Source of the DNA: Nitrospirota bacterium
GTDB lineage: Bacteria; Nitrospirota; Thermodesulfovibrionia; Thermodesulfovibrionales; UBA9159
Direction: 5' to 3'
NCBI GenBank assembly: GCA_023382175.1
Contig: JAMCQB010000089.1
Coordinates: 1-33,111 of the forward strand
DNA length: 33,111 bases
Positions 22,424 through 33,111 of the stretch are shown piece by piece. The translations under genes and the position numbers were made by a program. The notes beneath the pieces were generated by a model. That model ran no database searches, was not told where the DNA came from, and saw only the letters and a program-made list of their open reading frames with translations. Numbering within the stretch: position 1 is the stretch's first letter; every line of letters begins with the position of its first letter.

Positions 22424-22471
22424 AAATCGGAACTGACTTTAATCCCGGCCGGCTGCGAAGAGTTCGTGCTG

Positions 22472-22500
22472 TTGAAATCAAAGAAGGGAAATGATAAAAT
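22472..22500 (+). promoter_or_regulatory. Strong promoter of the nuoEFG operon
   Basis: TTGAAA (22472-22477), 17-bp spacer, TAAAAT (22495-22500); each box matches the consensus at five of six positions. I see no sigma-54 type GG-N10-GC box here, so control by the upstream NifA-like activator is not supported. Confidence 0.65.
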
Positions 22501-22519
22501 TAAAAAAAGATGAGCAACC

Positions 22520-22633
22520 ATGAAAACCATTGAAGCCGCAAAAGAAAGCTCCCGTCGGGTTAGAAAAGAGGCAAGGAAGAACCGGCGATTCTCACGAGTC
22601 TTGCGAAATAAATACAGTGATGAAGGATGGTAG
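22520..22633 (+). CDS. Small basic ORF overlapping the nuoE start
   Basis: 37 codons starting about 13 nt after the expected transcript start. The product is strongly basic (many Arg and Lys) and ends DEGW. Its TAG stop overlaps the nuoE ATG (ATGGTAG at 22627-22633), the arrangement expected for translational coupling or a regulatory leader. The Shine-Dalgarno is weak and the family unknown, so it may also be non-coding leader sequence. Confidence 0.35.
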   Translation: MKTIEAAKESSRRVRKEARKNRRFSRVLRNKYSDEGW

Positions 22634-23097
22634 TGTTGAATCAGAAGGTCCTGGAGGAAATTAATAGGATAAAGAGTAAATACCACGATTCACGCTCATG
22701 CCTTTTACCGGCCCTCTACATTTTTCAGAGGGAATACGGCTGGTTAAGTCCTGAAGCCCTGGAGGCTGTAGGGGAAATACTGAATATCCCGAAGGCCACG
22801 GTAAAAGGCGTCTCCACCTTTTATGCCATGTTCAGCCACAAGCCTACAGGGAGGCATCTCATCCAGTTATGCACGAATGTTGCCTGCATGCTTATGGGAG
22901 GAGAAAGACTCCTGGATGTCTTGAGGGAACAATACGGGCTCGAACCGAATATCACCACCCCTGACAACAGGTTTTCCCTTGTGATAATGGAATGTATAGG
23001 GGCATGCGACACCGCCCCGGCCATGCTCGTTGACACGGACTTCCATGGCAATCTTACGGGGGAAAAGGTAATAGACATCCTGGAGAAGTATAAATAA
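22627..23097 (+). CDS. nuoE: NuoE-type [2Fe-2S] subunit
   Basis: 156 residues, usual length. A helical N-terminal part (LLPALYIFQREYGWLSPEALE, shortened here) precedes the thioredoxin-like 2Fe-2S domain with the four ligand cysteines in CTNVAC and ECIGACDTAP. NuoE, with NuoF, forms the NADH-oxidising module of complex I and of NAD-linked hydrogenases and formate dehydrogenases. A GTG at 22633 is an alternative start. NuoF begins 1 nt after the stop. Confidence 0.88.
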   Translation: MVVLNQKVLEEINRIKSKYHDSRSCLLPALYIFQREYGWLSPEALEAVGEILNIPKATVKGVSTFYAMFSHKPTGRHLIQLCTNVACMLMGGERLLDVLREQYGLEPNITTPDNRFSLVIMECIGACDTAPAMLVDTDFHGNLTGEKVIDILEKYK

Positions 23098-23098
23098 C

Positions 23099-24343
23099 AT
23101 GGAGAGGGTTTTATTAAGAAATACAGAGAGCCCCCATTCAGCTGACATACACGAGTATATAAAAGGAGGTGGATACATATCTCTCCATAAGGCATTTGAG
23201 ATGAAGCCTTTCGATGTTATTGACGAGGTGAGGAGATCCGGATTACGGGGCAGAGGAGGCGCCGGTTTTCCGACCGGTATGAAGTGGTCGTTTGCTGTAG
23301 CAGACCCTCAAACGCCAAAGTACCTGATCTGTAATGCCGATGAAGGCGAACCCGGCACCTTTAAAGACAGGGGCATTCTCGAGAAAAATCCACATCTCCT
23401 GATAGAAGGGATGGTGATCTCTGCATATGCCATTGAAGCGGCATGGGGATATATCTACCTCAGGGGAGAATACCCCAGGGCAAAGGATGTCCTCTTAAGC
23501 GCCATCAAACAGGCATACGAAAAAAACTATCTTGGCGACAATATCCTTGGGAAAGGCGTCGGCTTTCATCTTCATGTTCATTGTGGCGCAGGCGCATATA
23601 TCTGTGGTGAAGAGACAGCCCTCATAGAGTCCCTTGAAGGCAAAAGGGGCCAACCGAGAATTAAACCGCCATTTCCTGTCAATGAGGGGTTCTCTTTAAA
23701 GCCCACAATTATAAATAATGTCGAGACTCTCGCCAATATTCCCTGCATTATAGAAATTGGAGGTGATGCATATTCGAAAATAGGAAGCCCTGAATGCCCC
23801 GGTCCGAAGCTCTATTCTGTAAGCGGTCATGTAAAAAGGCCTGGTGTATATGAACTTCCCATGGGGGTGACCTTAAGGGAGATTATTTATACACATTGCG
23901 GAGGAATCCTGGGTGATAAAAAGCTCAAGGCGGTAATCCCCGGCGGGATATCAACACCAGTACTTACCCCGGATAAAATTGATTGCCCCATGGATTTCCG
24001 TAATCTGCCCAGGGTCGGCAGTCTGCTTGGTTCAGGGGCTGTCATAGCCTTTGATGAAACAGTTGACATGGTGAACGTTTGCCTGAGGATAACGAAGTTC
24101 TTTGAACATGAGTCATGCGGTAAATGTACACCATGCCGGGAAGGGGTCGGCTGGATGAGGGCGATTATCGAAAGGATATGCGGCGGCGCCGGACGTAATG
24201 GCGACCTGGATCACTTGATGGAGGTCTCAAGCAATATCCTGGGTAAGACCTTCTGCCCCCTCGGAGACAGCGCTGCCACCGTGGTACAGAGCTACCTCGG
24301 GAATTTCAGGCATGAGTTTGAGGAAAAGATAAAGAACCGATGA
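23099..24343 (+). CDS. nuoF: NuoF-type NADH-binding flavoprotein subunit
   Basis: 414 residues. NADH and FMN binding: GRGGAGFPTGMKW (51-63) and NADEGEPGTFKDRG (79-92); HCGAGAYICGEETALIESLEG follows; the C-terminal 4Fe-4S cluster is formed by SCGKCTPCREG and FCPLGD. It lacks the extra N-terminal thioredoxin-like or C-terminal ferredoxin domains seen in some bifurcating NuoF/HydB homologues. It oxidises NADH (or reduces NAD+) through FMN. Its end overlaps nuoG by 4 nt (ATGA). Confidence 0.93.
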   Translation: MERVLLRNTESPHSADIHEYIKGGGYISLHKAFEMKPFDVIDEVRRSGLRGRGGAGFPTGMKWSFAVADPQTPKYLICNADEGEPGTFKDRGILEKNPHLLIEGMVISAYAIEAAWGYIYLRGEYPRAKDVLLSAIKQAYEKNYLGDNILGKGVGFHLHVHCGAGAYICGEETALIESLEGKRGQPRIKPPFPVNEGFSLKPTIINNVETLANIPCIIEIGGDAYSKIGSPECPGPKLYSVSGHVKRPGVYELPMGVTLREIIYTHCGGILGDKKLKAVIPGGISTPVLTPDKIDCPMDFRNLPRVGSLLGSGAVIAFDETVDMVNVCLRITKFFEHESCGKCTPCREGVGWMRAIIERICGGAGRNGDLDHLMEVSSNILGKTFCPLGDSAATVVQSYLGNFRHEFEEKIKNR

Positions 24344-26928
24344 TCACGATCACCATAAACGAAAAGAAGATAACACTGGAAAAACCGGTAACGATCCTTG
24401 AGGCAGCAAGATCCGCGGGAATACATATACCGACCCTTTGCCATGAGGATATCCTTGAGCCGTATGGAGGGTGCAGACTCTGTCTCGTTGAGGTAGAGAA
24501 AGTGCCGAGACTCCTTAGTGCATGCACCCAATATATAACTGAAGGCATGGTGGTCCGGACCGAGACAGAAAGAGTTATCGAGGCGAGAAGGGCTATTCTC
24601 GAGTTTCTCCTGATAAACCATCCCCTTGATTGCTCTTTCTGTGACAAGGCTGGGGAGTGCGATCTGCAGGACCTTGCTATGAAGTATGGCCCTGCAACAG
24701 GAAGATTTGCCGAAGGCAAAAGAAAACATCCTGAAAGCTATGATGATCCCCTCATTGTGAGAAACATGGAGCGCTGCGTCCTCTGCTCAAAATGTGTGAG
24801 GATGTGCGAGGATGTCCAGGGTGCATCTGCACTATGCATTACCAATCGGGGGAGCAAATCCTATGTCGAGCCCTTTTCCGGCGGCAGATACAACTGCGAG
24901 TATTGCGGAAACTGTCTGACCGTATGCCCTGTGGGCGCCATTATGTCGGGGCTGCACAGACATGACTATAGATCATGGCTCATAGAAAGGGAGGTGGAGA
25001 CCGTCTGTTCCTACTGCGGGGTCGGATGCTCCTTGCTCTTACAGATAAGAGGGAATTCCCTTATAAGAACCGTCCCAAAGATCGGGCGGGGACTGAACAG
25101 GGGGCTCCTCTGCAGTAAAGGGAGGTTCGGATATGACTATATCAGTAACAGTGAAAGATTAGATACCCCGTTAATACGGAGAAACGGAGAGCTGCAGCCG
25201 GCCGCATGGTCAGAGGCGATTACCCATATTGCCCGGAGACTGAAGGAGATTAAGGAAAATCATGGGAGCGACGCCATAGCAGGCATAGTATCCGGAAGGT
25301 GCACCAATGAAGACGCCTATGTGTTTCAGAAGTTTTTCAGGGGAGCCATCGGCACAAACAACATAGATTCGGTCGCAAGCCTGGCGTATGGACCTGCCCA
25401 GAGATTCTTCGAAAGGATCTTCGGTCAGGGCGTCACTGCAAACGATATACACGGCATATCCAATTCCGACGGCATTTTCGTGATTGGCGGGGATCCCACT
25501 GGGATAAATCCCGTGTTGGGTCTGCAAGTCAGGTCTGCCTGTAAAAAGGGAGCACCCGTCGTCGTGATGGGATATGCCGAAGGGCTAAAGAGATTTTCAA
25601 AACACGCATTCATTACGAATTCCACGACCGAAACAGTGCTCTTGGCTTCATTGGTTTCTGAGATAAAGAAAAAGAAATCCCTTCCGGGAGAGAGGCCTGT
25701 CTTCGAGGAAATAATCAGCGGACTCCAGCCTGTGCCGCTGAAAGACGCCTCCGAAATGAGCGGGTTCGGCCTGAATGATCTCGTTGATACGGTAGATACT
25801 CTGTCAAACATGATTAACCCTTCAATCATCGTAGGGAGAGACATTGTCCAGACAAGTACCGGACATATGAGTCTCCTGTTCCTTGCTGCCCTTGCATATT
25901 TACTGAACGGCAGGATTTATCTCCTTTCGGAACTCCCCAACGAACAGGGGCTTCTTGATATGGGATGCCAGCCAGACATGCTGCCGAGCGGAAGGCCGCT
26001 GACCATCGAGACCTTCAGGACGAGGTGCGAAGAAACTCTCGGAATTGCGATCCCTTCAACCCCGGGACTCAATTACGTCGAGATGATAGAAGCTGCTCAT
26101 GCAGGCAGGATAAAGGCGCTCTACGTAATGGGGGAAGATACGGTGCAGGGTCTGCCTGATAGAAACTATGTGAGTGATGCCCTCAGGAATGTTGAATTTC
26201 TTGTCGTTCAGGACATGTTTCTTACCGAAACGGCCCAGTATGCGGATGTGGTGCTGCCTTCCCTCTCGTGGGCCGAAAAAGAGGGTTCTTACACTAATCT
26301 TGAACGGAGGGTACAACTCACAAAAAAGGCTGTTGAGGGAGAGGGCATTGAGGAATGGAAGATTATTTCTGAGATGAGCAAGATACTCGGACTTGACATG
26401 GGTTATCGAAGTGTGACCGATATATTTACTGAGATAGTCAGGATTTCGCATATCTATAGAGAGATCACCTATAATGACATCACGAGCGGCAGGTGTATGT
26501 GGCCATACAAGGGCGGGCCGTTGCGCCATGATGTGCATATAGAAGGGATTGAGCTGCCTGACATCGTTTCCGTCATGAAAAATGCCGATGAGAGCGGGGT
26601 ACAGGTGCGCAGGGAAGCGCATCTATTTCATTCACAGAACGCAAGCAGGTATTCCCCTGCATTGCAGAGCATTTCTCCTGAACCTTACGTTAAGATGAGT
26701 GAAACTCTGGCGGGCAGATTATCCCTACGAGACGGTGAGCACGTAAAGGTTGTGACGGAAGCGGGGAGCATCACGCTGTCCGTGCATCGTGACCCATGCC
26801 TGCCGGAGAATGTTGTCCTTATTCCGCCCTTTGAAAAGGGAGGGATTTTTGAGATCACAAAATGGAAGGTGAACCCTGTAACAAAAGCCCCTGCATTGGA
26901 CGGCAACAGGGTAATTATTGAGACATGA
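24340..26928 (+). CDS. NuoG/formate-dehydrogenase-like large Fe-S subunit without the catalytic Cys/Sec
   Basis: 862 residues. In order: 2Fe-2S domain (C34, C45, C48, C62); His-Cys 4Fe-4S cluster (H94, C98, C101, C107); two further 4Fe-4S clusters (C146-C149-C152-C156 and C186-C189-C192-C196); then a molybdopterin oxidoreductase domain opening with another 4Fe-4S site (C223, C226, C230, C258) and a C-terminal molydopterin dinucleotide-binding domain. The GTNNID region aligns well with formate dehydrogenases, but the position of the catalytic Sec/Cys is A349 and the next His is Y350. It should therefore carry electrons rather than oxidise formate, as NuoG does. Whether it binds molybdopterin is open. 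Confidence 0.85.
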   Translation: MITITINEKKITLEKPVTILEAARSAGIHIPTLCHEDILEPYGGCRLCLVEVEKVPRLLSACTQYITEGMVVRTETERVIEARRAILEFLLINHPLDCSFCDKAGECDLQDLAMKYGPATGRFAEGKRKHPESYDDPLIVRNMERCVLCSKCVRMCEDVQGASALCITNRGSKSYVEPFSGGRYNCEYCGNCLTVCPVGAIMSGLHRHDYRSWLIEREVETVCSYCGVGCSLLLQIRGNSLIRTVPKIGRGLNRGLLCSKGRFGYDYISNSERLDTPLIRRNGELQPAAWSEAITHIARRLKEIKENHGSDAIAGIVSGRCTNEDAYVFQKFFRGAIGTNNIDSVASLAYGPAQRFFERIFGQGVTANDIHGISNSDGIFVIGGDPTGINPVLGLQVRSACKKGAPVVVMGYAEGLKRFSKHAFITNSTTETVLLASLVSEIKKKKSLPGERPVFEEIISGLQPVPLKDASEMSGFGLNDLVDTVDTLSNMINPSIIVGRDIVQTSTGHMSLLFLAALAYLLNGRIYLLSELPNEQGLLDMGCQPDMLPSGRPLTIETFRTRCEETLGIAIPSTPGLNYVEMIEAAHAGRIKALYVMGEDTVQGLPDRNYVSDALRNVEFLVVQDMFLTETAQYADVVLPSLSWAEKEGSYTNLERRVQLTKKAVEGEGIEEWKIISEMSKILGLDMGYRSVTDIFTEIVRISHIYREITYNDITSGRCMWPYKGGPLRHDVHIEGIELPDIVSVMKNADESGVQVRREAHLFHSQNASRYSPALQSISPEPYVKMSETLAGRLSLRDGEHVKVVTEAGSITLSVHRDPCLPENVVLIPPFEKGGIFEITKWKVNPVTKAPALDGNRVIIET

Positions 26929-26982: not shown

Positions 26983-27744
26983 ATGGAGAAGCAGAGAATC
27001 TTGATCGTTGATGACGATCCGGTAATTGCGCTCAGCTGCAAGAAAATACTGGGAGTGGAGGGATATACCGTATTTACTGCAGAGGACGGCGAGAGTGCCA
27101 TTAAGAAGGTTTCTGACGAGACGTTTGATCTGGTAATAACCGATGTGCGACTGCCTGATATAAACGGGTTGACCATATTGAGAGAGTCAAGAATCGTACA
27201 ACCTTCGGCGGATATCATGGTGATCTCGGGGTATCCCTCCCTTGAAGACGCGCGTGAGGCAACACGCCTCGGAGCATTCGAGTATGTCGAAAAGCCCTTT
27301 ACCCCTGACTTCATGCTCAATGCCGTGAAAAAGGTATTTGATCGAAAAGGGTGGATACTGAGAAAGGCGTACATCAATGAGTTCAAAAAGTATATAGTTC
27401 CGACAGAAGAGATGGATGATTTTACTGTGTATTACAAGGACGGGATGTGGGCAAGACCCCTCATAAAGGAGGAGGTATGGGAAATAGGCATGGATGTCAG
27501 GCATTTCCTGGTGAGCGGGCAACTCATTTATGTCGAGATCATGAAACATATGAAGGCCCTTGCAGCAGGCGAGCCTTTTGCACGACTAACCTTAAGTGAC
27601 GGGAAGATCTCCGAAGTAACGTCTCCCATGACCGGTGTTGTGAAGATGTTCAACGAACGCGCAAACGACGCCATCTCTTCTCTTGTAAAGAACTATGCTT
27701 CAGAAGGCTGGCAGTTGTGGCTGGCGAGGATTACAAGCCTCTAA
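26983..27744 (+). CDS. Response regulator receiver domain fused to a GcvH-like domain
   Basis: 253 residues. REC domain (about 4-120) with all key residues: D10/D11, phospho-acceptor D54 in VITDVRLPD, S82 and K104 in EKPF. There is no DNA-binding or enzymatic output domain. Instead residues about 145-250 resemble the lipoyl-carrier H protein of glycine cleavage: AGEPFARL, TSPMTGVV, ending EGWQLWLARI. The canonical lipoyl lysine position appears to be occupied by G207 with K208 next to it, so lipoylation is doubtful. It follows nuoG by 54 nt, with GGGGG 5 nt before the ATG, and probably belongs to the same operon. No sensor kinase is nearby. Confidence 0.75.
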   Translation: MEKQRILIVDDDPVIALSCKKILGVEGYTVFTAEDGESAIKKVSDETFDLVITDVRLPDINGLTILRESRIVQPSADIMVISGYPSLEDAREATRLGAFEYVEKPFTPDFMLNAVKKVFDRKGWILRKAYINEFKKYIVPTEEMDDFTVYYKDGMWARPLIKEEVWEIGMDVRHFLVSGQLIYVEIMKHMKALAAGEPFARLTLSDGKISEVTSPMTGVVKMFNERANDAISSLVKNYASEGWQLWLARITSL

Positions 27745-27789: not shown

Positions 27790-28527
27790 TCAGCCCATAT
27801 CCCCAAAGAGAAACTGGGATAGGGCAATTACTGCAATGGCGGCTGTTTCGGCCCGCAGGATGCGACTCCCCAGGGAGGCAACGAGAAACCCATGGTCTTC
27901 TGCGACCTGCACTTCCCCTTCTGTGAAGCCTCCTTCGGGCCCCACAGCTACAATCAATGAGCGGCACCCTTCGAGACTCTCCATGCCTTTCTTCATCCTG
28001 ATTCCCTTTCTCTCCCAGAAGAGAAGCCCTTTGCACTTTCTGAAATAGGGGGCATAAGGTGAATCTCCGGAAAAGATGTCCCTGAAGGCAACTGGTTCAT
28101 GGATGATGGGGATGGCGGTTCTTCCGGATTGTCGCGAGGCATCTTCTGCGATCTTTCGCCACCGGCCGGTCTTTCCGGTGTTTCTCACCTGGCTTCTTTC
28201 AGTAACCACCGGGAGTATCTTGCTGACGCCAAGCTCTGTGGCCTTTTGTATCACCAGTTCCATCTTCTCGCCCTTGAGAAGACCCTGGATAAGAATGAGG
28301 TTGATTGGTGACTCCGTGCTGTGGGTAACTGCGCCAAGGACATCTGCAGTGATTTCCTTCTTGACGATGGAAGTGATCTTAGCCCTGTAGGAATGCCCTT
28401 TTCCGTCAAGGATCTCCAGTTCTTCCCCCTCTTTGCACCTTAAGACTGAGGCAAGATAGTGGGCCTTTTCTCCGGTAATATGGATCGTACGGGGATTTTC
28501 CTCTACTGGAAGGAATAAGCGGGGCAT
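27790..28527 (-). CDS. rsmE: 16S rRNA m3U1498 methyltransferase RsmE
   Basis: 245 residues. N-terminal PUA-like RNA-binding domain (about 1-70) and a SPOUT methyltransferase domain with IQGLLKGEKMELVIQKATEL, VVTERSQVR, the SAM-binding VAVGPEGGFTEGEV and LGSRILRAETAAI near the C-terminus. It methylates U1498 (E. coli numbering) of 16S rRNA. It is the last gene of the heat-shock strand run, 7 nt after dnaJ; rsmE next to dnaJ is a common arrangement. Confidence 0.94.
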   Translation of the reverse strand: MPRLFLPVEENPRTIHITGEKAHYLASVLRCKEGEELEILDGKGHSYRAKITSIVKKEITADVLGAVTHSTESPINLILIQGLLKGEKMELVIQKATELGVSKILPVVTERSQVRNTGKTGRWRKIAEDASRQSGRTAIPIIHEPVAFRDIFSGDSPYAPYFRKCKGLLFWERKGIRMKKGMESLEGCRSLIVAVGPEGGFTEGEVQVAEDHGFLVASLGSRILRAETAAIAVIALSQFLFGDMG

Positions 28528-28534
28528 GGAGGTT

Positions 28535-29632
28535 CTATTTCTCAGCGCCTGAGAAAATGTCCTTTAGTTTCTCCTTGAAAGTCCTGGATGCCTTCTCACC
28601 ATTGATCTGTGCAAACTCCTCAAGGAGTTCCCTCTGGCGGGGAGTGATGTGTTTCGGAACCTCGATGTTCACCACAACGACTTCATCTCCTTTCCCATGA
28701 CCGCCGAGGCGCGGAATTCCCTTCCCCTTCATGTGAAATGCCTTTCCTGACGGTGTGCCCGGCGGAATTTTGAGGTTCGCCGTTCCTTCAAGGGTAGGGA
28801 CCTCCATCTCCGCTCCCAGGACTGCCTGGGGGAAAGTAATGCTCATGGCGCAATAAATATCATTGCCCCTTCTCATAAAAACCACGTGCTCTTTAATGTC
28901 AATGATGATATAGAGATCCCCGGGCGGGCCGCCATGGGCGCCGGGTTCGCCCTCCCCGGACATCCTCAGGCGCGATCCTGAATCCACGCCGGCGGGGACT
29001 TTAACGAGGATGCTTCGGACATTCTTGACCTTCCCGTTCCCCTTGCATGCAGTGCAGGGATCGGTGATGATCTTTCCTGTACCGTGGCAGGCGCCGCACG
29101 ATCTGGATACACTGAAAAAGCCCTGCTGAAACCTCACATGACCTGTGCCCTTGCAGTGTGAGCAGGTGACAGGTCCCTTGCCCGGTTTTGATCCTGACCC
29201 ATTGCACATGGAACAGGTCTCCCACCTCGGCACCTCAATCTGCTTTTCGGCGCCGAAGGCAGACTCCTCAAGGGTTATCTCAAGATCATAGCGGAGGTCA
29301 TTGCCCCTGGCGGGTCTTGTGCGGCGCTGGCCCGAAAAGCCGAAGAAATCCCCGAAAATATCTTCAAAGATGTCCCCAAACCCTGCGCCGGTGAAGGCCC
29401 CGAATCCAGCTCCCGCGCCCTCTGCGGAACCGAACCGGTCGTAATGTGCTCTCTTCTCAGAATCGCTCAGGACAGAGTAGGCTTCATTGATCTCCTTGAA
29501 CTTCTCCTCTGACTCCTTACTGCCCGTGTTCCTGTCAGGATGGTACTTGAGGGCTAGGGTCCTGAAGGCTTTCTTGAGCTCGGCTTCAGTGGCATTTCTC
29601 GGGACGCCAAGTATCTCATAGTAGTCCCTCAT
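28535..29632 (-). CDS. dnaJ: Chaperone DnaJ
   Basis: 365 residues. J domain (1-70) with the HPD motif in KYHPDRN, a Gly/Phe-rich linker (about 71-105), four CxxCxGxG zinc repeats ([32 protein letters not shown]) and the C-terminal substrate-binding domain. It stimulates the DnaK ATPase and delivers substrates. Its start overlaps the end of dnaK by 4 nt. Confidence 0.96.
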
Positions 29633-31542
29633 TTCTCCTTCTTGTCCACATCTTCAAATTCCGCTTCCACCACTTCTTCTTCATTCCGGGGTTTTGGACC
29701 TGCGGTTTCCGTCTGTCCCGGCTGGGCGCCTGCGCCGGCAGCCTTGTAAAGATGCTCTGCTATCTTATAGGAAGCTTTCGTCAGTTTTTCCATGGCCCCC
29801 CTGATCTCTGAAGCGTCGGCGCTGGTGTCCTTCACCTTCCTGCACTGTTCCAGGGCTTCCTCTATCTCTCTCTTCTCGGCTTCCGTCACCTTGTCACCAT
29901 ATTCCCTGAGGGATTTCTCCACAGTATAGACAAGGGTGTCAGCCTCGTTTCTCGCCTCGGCAAGCTGTTTCTTTTTCCTGTCGTCCTCAGCGTGGGATTC
30001 CGCGTCCCGAGTCATATTCTTGATCTCATCTTCGGTAAGACCGCTGGAGGCCGTAATCCTGATGGACTGCTCCTTGCCGGTGCCGAGATCCTTTGCAGAA
30101 ACATGGAGTATGCCGTTGGCGTCGATATCAAAGGATACCTCAACCTGAGGCACACCACGGGGAGCCGGCGGTATCCCTACCAGCTCGAAAACGCCGAGGA
30201 GTTTATTGTCTGCAGCCATCTCCCTCTCGCCCTGGTGGATCTTGATGGTGACCGCGGGCTGGTTGTCGGATGCCGTCGAGAAAATCTGGCTCTTCTTGGT
30301 GGGAATCGTGGTGTTTCTCTCGATGATCTTTGTAAAGATGCCCCCGAGGGTCTCGATGCCCAGGGAAAGGGGAGTCACATCCAGGAGAAGCACCTCTTTC
30401 ACTTCACCCTTGAGAACTGCACCCTGAATCGCCGCGCCCACCGCAACCACCTCGTCGGGATTCACGGTCCGGTTCGGCTCCTTTCCGAAGAAAGACTGCA
30501 CCACTTGCTGAACCTTGGGTGTGCGGGTCTGGCCTCCCACGAGAATCACTTCGTCGATATCCTTGGGGGAAAGGTTTGCATCGGAAAGGGCAAGCTTACA
30601 GGGTTCAATGGTCTTGTCAATGAGGTCTCCTGTAAGCTGTTCAAGCTTTGCCCTGGAGAGCTTCATGAGGAGATGTTTCGGCCCGCTGGCATCTGCAGTG
30701 ACAAAGGGGAGGTTTATCTCTGTCTCTGTGGCGGTGGAGAGCTCGATCTTCGCCCTTTCCGCAGCCTCCTTCAGTCTCTGGAGGGCCATCTTGTCCTGTT
30801 TCAGGTCTATGCCCTGTTCCTTCTTGAATTCTTCCACCATCCAGTCGATGATCCTGAGGTCAAAGTCGTCCCCGCCCAGATAGGTGTCTCCGTTGGTGGA
30901 TTTGACTTCGATCACCCCTTCTCCTATCTCAAGGACCGAGATATCGAAGGTGCCTCCTCCCAGGTCATATACCGAGATCTTCTCCTCTTTTTTCTTATCC
31001 ATTCCGTATGCCAGAGATGCTGCGGTCGGCTCGTTGATGATCCTGAGGACGTTCAGTCCTGCGATCTTTCCTGCATCCTTTGTGGCCTGCCGCTGGCTGT
31101 CATCGAAATAGGCAGGAACAGTGATCACCGCGTCAGTAACCGACTCCCCGAGATAATCCTCGGCAGCCTGTTTCAGTTTCTGAAGTACCATTGCAGAAAT
31201 CTCAGGGGGAGAGTATTTTTTCCCCCGTATCTCCACGTGCGCGTCACCATTGGCCGCCTCCACGATCTTGTATGGCAAGCGTTTCTTTGCGTGATCCACC
31301 TGGGGGGAGTTGTATTTCCTCCCCATCAGTCTCTTTATGGAGAATATGGTATTTTCAGGGTTCGTAATGGACTGCCTCTTTGCGATCTGCCCTACCAGGC
31401 GTTCCCCCTTTTCTGTGAAGGCAACCACCGACGGCGTCGTCCTGCTCCCTTCCTGGTTCGGGATCACTACCGGTTCACCTCCCTGCACAACAGCAACAAC
31501 CGAGTTCGTGGTTCCCAAGTCTATTCCGATCGCTTTTCCCAT
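29629..31542 (-). CDS. dnaK: Chaperone DnaK (Hsp70)
   Basis: 637 residues, full length. Nucleotide-binding domain starting [14 protein letters not shown], with [19 protein letters not shown] and [13 protein letters not shown]; substrate-binding domain with [17 protein letters not shown] and [18 protein letters not shown]; helical lid and an acidic C-terminal tail. GGAGGAATAACC precedes the ATG. It follows grpE by 2 nt. Confidence 0.97.
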
Positions 31543-31544
31543 GG

Positions 31545-32141
31545 TTATTCCTCCTCTGATTCTTTATTAATTTCAATTTCCTGTGCTTCATCAGGTTTTT
31601 TTGAAACCGCCACCAAGGAAGGTCTCAGCACCTTTTCGCCGAACATATATCCTTTCCGGTATTCCTCAACAACGGTCTTGTCCTCCACGTCCGACCGTAC
31701 CACCTGCGACATGGCATGGTGAACTGACGGGTCAAAGGGTTCGCCCTTTGCCGAAATGGGAACAAGGCCGAACTTCTCCATCACCCTCTGAAATTCCCTG
31801 AGGGTTATCTCGACGCCCTTCACGAGTCCCCCGGACACATCATCAGTCGCATGGCTCAGGGCCATCTCGAGATTATCGATCACCGGGAGGATCTCGTAGA
31901 GGATCGATTCGTTGCAGTATTTGACCAGTTCCTCCTTATCCCTCTGCATGCGCTTCTTGTAGTTTTCGAACTCAGCGTAAAGCCTGAGGTACTTGTCCTT
32001 CATTTCTGCAAGCTCCACTTCAGGGCCTAGGCCTTCCCCGGTCGGCTCTTCTTCCTTCTCCGCAGGCTCAAGGCTCTCCATCTCTTTTTTTTCTAGCGCC
32101 TCTTCGTTTCCCACATCTTCCTCCTCATGAAGCCCCGCCAT
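31545..32141 (-). CDS. grpE: Nucleotide exchange factor GrpE
   Basis: 198 residues. Acidic, disordered N-terminus (about 1-45), long coiled-coil helix ([20 protein letters not shown]) and the C-terminal beta domain with [25 protein letters not shown] and [20 protein letters not shown]. It exchanges ADP on DnaK. Its first base overlaps the last base of hrcA (TAATG). Confidence 0.95.
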
Positions 32142-33111
32142 TATCTCCCCGAAAGAACCTTGGTTAAGAATTTCGCCGCTGTATCCACAATGGTGATGGC
32201 CTTCAGATAGTCCATGCGTGTCGGTCCGATGATCCCGATGGTCCCTACGGGCCTCTCACCTTCATTGTAGGTGGATACCACTATGCTCAGCTTCTTCATA
32301 TCCGAGGCAGAGTTCTCAGAACCGATCACCACCTTCACCCCTTCTGACTGGGAGAGGGTATCCAGGAGCCTTATGATGAGGTGCTTGTCCTCGATAGCCC
32401 TGGAGATCTCCTTTATCCTCTGGAGGTCTGAAAATTCAGGGAGTCCCAATACCTCAGAAAGCCCTGATATGAAGACGTCCCCGTAATCAAAATAAAGAGC
32501 CTCCCGGCAAATAGAGATCGCCCGGGAAATAAGGGTATCACAGAGCGCCGTGTCCCTCTGCATTTCCCTTACGATCCTCAACCTGATCTCATCAATGGCG
32601 AGCCCTGCGAACTCGGAATTGAGGTAATCAGAAATTCTGTTCAGATCCCTCTGGGTCAGATCCACAGCCAGTTGTACACATTTGTTTTTCACGATCCCCT
32701 CATCGGTAAGAAGCACGGTCATCACCTGCCCCTCCTTATACCTGAAGAGGTTAATACCTCTCAAAGTGGCCTTTTCAGGTCTGGGAGAAAGGGCAACGCC
32801 GAGGTAATGGGAGACCGTTGAGAGCGCCTTTGAGGTTTCCTTCAGCAGGGCATTGATATCATTCCTTATATTTTCCAGCCTCTGAACGATCTCTTCGGTG
32901 TGGCACTCAACCGGCGAAGATTCCCTTTTGGCAAGATAATCAACATAAAAACGGTATCCCTTGTCTGTGGGGATGCGGCCTGCCGAAGTATGGGGTTGAT
33001 GGAGGAACCCCATGTCCTCAAGATCAGCCATGATATTCCTGATGGTCGCTGGCGAAAGGTTGAAGGCATACTTCTTCGTCACGAACCGTGACCCCACGGG
33101 GTCTGGGTTCG
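32141..33111 (-). CDS. hrcA: Heat-inducible transcription repressor HrcA, N-terminus missing at the window edge
   Basis: About 322 residues visible. The winged-helix part (DPVGSRFVTKKY, then LSPATIRNIMADLEDMGFL) is at the edge, and the dimerisation and GAF-like C-terminal domains are complete (GIIGPTRMDYLKAI near the end). The frame remains open to position 33111; HrcA proteins normally have about 25 more residues before PVGSR, so the codon read as a start at 33097 (a GTG inside PVGSR) is not the real start. HrcA represses heat-shock genes through the CIRCE operator, which would lie upstream, outside the window. Confidence 0.94.
   Translation of the reverse strand, partial: NPDPVGSRFVTKKYAFNLSPATIRNIMADLEDMGFLHQPHTSAGRIPTDKGYRFYVDYLAKRESSPVECHTEEIVQRLENIRNDINALLKETSKALSTVSHYLGVALSPRPEKATLRGINLFRYKEGQVMTVLLTDEGIVKNKCVQLAVDLTQRDLNRISDYLNSEFAGLAIDEIRLRIVREMQRDTALCDTLISRAISICREALYFDYGDVFISGLSEVLGLPEFSDLQRIKEISRAIEDKHLIIRLLDTLSQSEGVKVVIGSENSASDMKKLSIVVSTYNEGERPVGTIGIIGPTRMDYLKAITIVDTAAKFLTKVLSGR

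Follow-up and report, generated by a model that had tools for sequence, protein, structure and literature searches.

What is the role of a receiver domain that is fused to a GcvH-like domain and encoded directly behind the genes of an NADH-oxidizing module? This question is raised by a gene at positions 26983 to 27744 (forward strand) of the window, by which we refer to the whole analyzed stretch of 33,111 nucleotides from a Nitrospirota bacterium. The gene, here termed REC-GcvH, is an intact open reading frame with the start codon ATG, coding for a protein of 253 amino acids with about 38 full-length homologs in Nitrospirota. For complex I as for bifurcating enzymes, post-translational control by two-component systems is hardly known. 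The sole example among the papers found is Rv3143, an orphan receiver protein of actinobacteria with its gene near nuo genes, which cross-links to NuoD and was proposed to be a modulator of complex I (PMC9274095).

Domain composition and distribution of REC-GcvH

The N-terminal part of the protein (residues 6-115, positions 26998-27327, forward strand) matches the Pfam receiver family PF00072 (Response_reg) with an E-value of 5e-27. It contains the residues by which receivers are recognized, i.e., the acidic pocket D10-D12, the acceptor D54, Ser/Thr at position 82, and K104. A set of 32 non-redundant full-length homologs shows no exchange at D10-D12, D54, and K104 and has either Ser or Thr at residue 82 throughout. 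The codon of the predicted phospho-acceptor Asp54 is located at positions 27142-27144 (forward strand). The receiver is a conserved switch with an intact phosphorylation pocket. A Pfam search of the protein returned no DNA-binding domain. A complete phosphorylation site and the lack of a DNA-binding output had both been claimed in the preliminary description of this locus, and both were confirmed.

Assignment of the C-terminal domain (residues 121-253, positions 27343-27741, forward strand) required several lines of evidence. The Pfam family GCV_H was matched over residues 162-243 with an E-value of 0.0014 (3.2e-4 for the C-terminus alone), at a score of 19-21 bits slightly below the Pfam cut-off of 22.2. 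A profile built from 15 homologous C-termini retrieved exclusively glycine-cleavage H proteins from the PDB (best E-value 2.9e-7), and given this search the weak match can be taken as genuine on the sequence level. In the full-length AlphaFold2 model, pLDDT values of 76-92 were reached over most of the C-terminal domain. Since receiver domains topped and swamped the Foldseek matches of this model, the C-terminal domain was modelled alone (pLDDT 87, pTM 0.79), resulting in 22 matches at E <= 0.001, all of them GcvH (TM 0.55-0.62). The structure prediction thereby supported the GcvH-like nature of the C-terminus that had been proposed earlier.

The preliminary description had also noted a lipoyl lysine displaced by one position, at G207/K208 (codons at positions 27601-27606, forward strand). 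The displacement as such was reproduced: G207 sits at the place of the lipoyl lysine of GcvH, eight residues N-terminal to the conserved Pro215. The idea of a functional lysine at K208 did not survive the comparison with the homologs. Gly occupies the lipoyl position in 31 of 32 sequences, and column 208 is not conserved (K8 Q8 R7 N6 H2 E1); consequently, the domain is a cofactor-less GcvH fold, i.e., one without carrier function. An ordinary GcvH with the lipoyl lysine present is encoded on another contig of the window genome, and no gcvP, gcvT, or hdr-type genes were found among the window open reading frames or the assigned conserved neighbors in relatives. REC-GcvH shares with GcvH (PF01597) and LbpA (PMC6067878) the fold and conserved GcvH-like positions of its C-terminus, but differs from both in the family-wide lack of the lipoyl lysine, in the fusion to a receiver, and in a genomic context without glycine-cleavage or hdr genes. 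Among 25 GcvH domains placed in a tree, those of Nitrospirota REC-GcvH proteins cluster together on a long branch (support 91/93).

Of 198 sampled Nitrospirota genomes, 31 contain full-length homologs, scoring 95-294 bits in the C-terminal search; all 31 belong to the order or class of the window, and homologs are present in further Nitrospirota MAGs. Two other phyla, sampled with 284 and 395 genomes, yielded no close member. One distant REC-GcvH was recovered from another phylum (L173/L177; 55 bits at L173), the GcvH domain of which likewise lacks the lipoyl lysine and falls outside the Nitrospirota group in a weakly supported tree. A lysine-less GcvH-like protein from Gemmatimonadota, used as query, mostly recovered ordinary GcvH.

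NADH-oxidizing modules next to REC-GcvH

The three genes upstream of REC-GcvH in the window code for NuoE-, NuoF-, and NuoG-type proteins, with nuoG ending at position 26928 and leaving a spacer of 54 nt, as had been described. According to Pfam and NCBIfam, nuoE (positions 22627-23097, forward strand) encodes a complex I type subunit of 156 amino acids without a receiver domain, sharing 60-63% identity with NuoE from the nuo operons of relatives. Its neighbor nuoF (positions 23099-24343, forward strand; 414 amino acids) scores above the cut-off of TIGR01959, is devoid of Bfu-type extensions, and is 71-77% identical to the operon-encoded NuoF of relatives. The product of nuoG (positions 24340-26928, forward strand; 862 amino acids; Pfam/NCBIfam) shares 51-70% identity with its operon counterparts and contains a formate dehydrogenase-like molybdopterin part without the Mo-ligand Cys-His, the FdsA-type motif ARVCH being aligned with ASLAY. 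Judged by these similarities, the window nuoEFG are orthologs of the NADH module (N-module) of complex I and not of the Bfu type.

The main complex I operon of the window genome (contig C9) consists of nuoABCD, a gene for a cNMP-binding protein, and nuoH to nuoN, and does not contain nuoEFG. The main nuo operon is likewise without nuoEFG in the genome hosting loci L039 and L040, and in both of these loci, as in the window, nuoEFG is followed by REC-GcvH. With nuoEFG missing from the operons of two genomes and present in nuoEFG-REC-GcvH sets, the complex I NADH module of the window lineage thus seems to have been relocated from the operon together with REC-GcvH. The five other NuoF-type matches in the window genome, which are complex I, Bfu-type, or RnfC-like proteins, are less closely related; as this genome is a draft of 86.8% completeness, a further copy of nuoEFG or of the REC-NuoE fusion described below could be missed.

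Several observations on these genomes are added here. L039 and L040 lie on different contigs of the MAG JAMCWJ01, with 67-81% identity to the window NuoE, and the presence of two sets could reflect paralogous modules or else a mixed bin. The stand-alone cyclic-nucleotide-binding domain protein encoded between nuoD and nuoH (L167:5266-5721 on contig C9 and L181:10053-10505) occupies the slot that nuoEFG takes in relatives. On contig C81 of the window genome (L170:702-5356), a Bfu-type NuoE/NuoF pair is located directly behind the gene of a 655-aa protein, which by sequence inspection resembles the catalytic subunit of CO dehydrogenase. A sigma-54 promoter, sought ahead of nuoE as a target of the upstream GAF/sigma-54 activator, gave no match in the gap at positions 22424-22626, and matches over the whole window were below chance.

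Clustering of the genes of 40 loci including the window (39 distinct ones, L046 and L103 being one contig) revealed a different kind of module in most relatives. The conserved order is REC-GcvH, a NuoE/BfuC subunit with an N-terminally fused receiver (REC-NuoE, about 289 aa), a HydB/BfuB-like protein (610-650 aa), and a NuoG/FdhA-like protein (about 820 aa), often with a small thioredoxin-like [2Fe-2S] protein between REC-NuoE and the HydB/BfuB-like gene. Among the 30 relatives surveyed, 23 have REC-NuoE directly after REC-GcvH and five more have it within five genes on the same strand, usually as part of a HydABC-type (Bfu) operon. The fusion occurs in 38 of the 198 Nitrospirota genomes (e.g., at L107, L116, and in most relatives), and its receiver domain retains the phosphorylation pocket. 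It was found in 29 of 31 genomes with REC-GcvH vs. nine of 167 without, a co-occurrence inflated by the shared ancestry of these related genomes. Five relatives (L097, L102, L114, L116, and L117) carry the REC-GcvH operon divergently from nuoA, and in L118 it lies between nuoD and nuoE.

The BfuB-like protein of the relatives aligns end to end with the HydB chains of bifurcating hydrogenases, on the basis of which the cluster resembles the Bfu family of HydABC-type enzymes (PMC9304861). It is HydB-like throughout and includes both Fe-S extensions, an N-terminal [2Fe-2S] and a C-terminal [4Fe-4S] one, whereas the window NuoF has neither. Further differences from the Bfu family are the receiver carried by the NuoE/BfuC subunit of the relatives and the lack of the formate dehydrogenase Mo-ligand in their BfuA-like subunit, which reads ARFGY at the position of ARVCH. 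Active formate dehydrogenase function was rejected for both this subunit and the window NuoG based on the absent Mo-ligand Cys-His.

Two relatives, G004 (L108) and G174 (L103), have a REC-GcvH gene without an adjacent NuoE-type gene. The genes hrcA-grpE-dnaK-dnaJ adjoin REC-GcvH both in the window (positions 27790-33097) and in G004 (L108:10356-15184), with different relative strands, and the window genome and G004 are the two REC-GcvH genomes without REC-NuoE. In summary of the neighborhood survey, relatives have kept the anticipated linkage to NuoE/F/G-type genes, which extends to a second receiver fused to NuoE. Neither of the two outcomes named beforehand as refuting, a C-terminus unlike GcvH in structure and a linkage lost in relatives, was thus observed. 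The preliminary description had named two possible targets of REC-GcvH: the electron-transfer module, which the linkage suggests as the most likely one, and a lipoyl/thiol carrier chain, which the Gly at the lipoyl position of 31 of 32 homologs speaks against.

Proposed mode of action

On balance, we consider it somewhat probable that REC-GcvH is a phosphorylation-controlled, cofactor-less adaptor, which docks on an NADH-oxidizing module and modulates its activity or assembly. This reading is drawn from the fold, the intact pocket, the lack of a DNA-binding domain, the conserved linkage, the splitting off of nuoEFG, and the precedent of Rv3143. REC-GcvH would act as a two-component response regulator on protein instead of DNA. 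Asp54 would be phosphorylated by a histidine kinase whose gene is not adjacent in the window genome, thereby altering the docking of the lysine-less GcvH-fold domain on the NADH-oxidizing module, with a predicted physical contact to NuoEFG. Conserved residues that might take part in such docking are W156/R158, W166-E167, and W243/W246. The docking target in the window would be NuoEFG, i.e., the N-module of complex I encoded outside the main nuo operon, and in relatives mainly the HydABC-like (Bfu-type) module, the NuoE of which bears its own receiver. Docking may promote or diminish either NADH oxidation or the joining of the module to the remaining complex. We infer these functional steps from gene linkage and domain content, and among independent hints of receivers acting directly on this enzyme, the strongest is that the same operons also contain REC-NuoE.

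The adaptor reading has its closest counterpart in Rv3143 and MSMEG_2064, likewise receivers without a DNA-binding domain, encoded in or near nuo genes, for which a modulation of complex I through protein contact has been proposed. Rv3143 consists of a receiver alone and contacts NuoD, whereas REC-GcvH is extended by a GcvH-fold domain and linked to NuoEFG or Bfu-type modules, for which contact is predicted. Because of this added domain, we would file REC-GcvH as working like Rv3143 and not as its ortholog. Receivers acting on complex I are known from a single case, and the GcvH fold is widespread. Among the open-licence papers searched, none dealt with a REC-GcvH or REC-NuoE fusion, and neither the lysine-less REC-GcvH tied to NuoEFG or Bfu modules nor REC-NuoE appears in them. 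A family combining a conserved pocket with a carrier fold put to new use and a receiver on NuoE would make phosphorylation gating of NADH oxidation or bifurcation directly testable with few purified proteins. A wider proposal can be put forward tentatively, as possible more than probable: anaerobic Nitrospirota might keep complex I and bifurcating enzymes under direct two-component control, with GcvH serving as phospho-switched dock, a receiver placed on the bifurcating subunit, and one lineage maintaining the NADH module as an exchangeable unit beside the switch.

Signal input and competing readings

No histidine kinase gene lies beside REC-GcvH in the window. In several relatives, REC-GcvH is preceded by the gene of a membrane sensor kinase with a HAMP domain and two haem-type motifs (CxxCH, CxxxxCH), sometimes accompanied by a single REC or an NtrC-type regulator. 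Such genes, often present in the clusters of relatives, would fit transcriptional control too, and they form the basis of the main rival explanation, which we regard as rather unlikely. In this view, REC-GcvH would serve as an arm for phosphate shuttling or sensing in a two-component network of transcriptional control, composed of the diheme kinase, the single REC, and the NtrC-type activator; the GcvH-like domain would bind the kinase or NtrC, and linkage to nuo or bfu genes would reflect shared expression control. The location of these genes directly upstream in several relatives agrees with this, as does the kinase of the same layout preceding the distant REC-GcvH of another phylum. However, REC-GcvH heads its operon in many relatives without an adjoining kinase or NtrC gene, REC-NuoE places a receiver on the enzyme itself, and in the window lineage REC-GcvH appears to have moved with nuoEFG and not with a kinase.

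Less probable still is a role as an assembly or structural factor, in which the GcvH-like scaffold aids the maturation of NuoE/F/G or their attachment to the rest of complex I and phosphorylation, if any, is secondary. The separation of nuoEFG from nuoABCD and nuoH to nuoN in two genomes, always together with REC-GcvH, would be expected if the module is attached separately. Yet a pure scaffold has no need for a pocket that is invariant in 32 homologs, and REC-GcvH is also present in most of the relatives that have ordinary nuo operons. A chance association or local hitchhiking, with REC-GcvH acting somewhere unrelated, is very improbable: other genes do follow REC-GcvH in G174 and G004, and the neighbors hrcA-grpE-dnaK-dnaJ recur next door in the window and L108, but 28 of the 30 relatives surveyed have a NuoE-type gene no more than five genes away, the association spans two different kinds of NADH module, and REC-GcvH co-occurs with REC-NuoE across genomes, all of which disfavors it. 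A phosphorylation-controlled lipoyl carrier, which the GcvH fold and the window lysine one position off the lipoyl site might suggest, is hardly credible and lipoylation at K208 was rejected: lysine is found there in only eight of 32 homologs, 31 of them have Gly at the lipoyl site itself, genes of the gcvP, gcvT, or hdr type are absent from the window, and an ordinary GcvH is available elsewhere in the genome.

Some further clusters were recorded in the course of the analysis. The nearest relative of the diheme kinase in the window genome (contig C152, L178:6437-8260) is divergent from apparent periplasmic nitrate reductase genes and hence no obvious partner of the window REC-GcvH. In the other phylum, the distant REC-GcvH follows its diheme kinase and faces genes of a cytochrome b and a multihaem cytochrome (L177:7339-16805). 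In a Gemmatimonadota genome (L147:5461-12177; all names by sequence inspection), an NtrC regulator, a kinase of the diheme type, and ferredoxin-type and NrfD-like subunits are encoded together with two lysine-less GcvH-like proteins. The placement of GcvH domains without cofactor next to two-component proteins and respiratory redox complexes, as seen in three clusters, may therefore represent a wider pattern.
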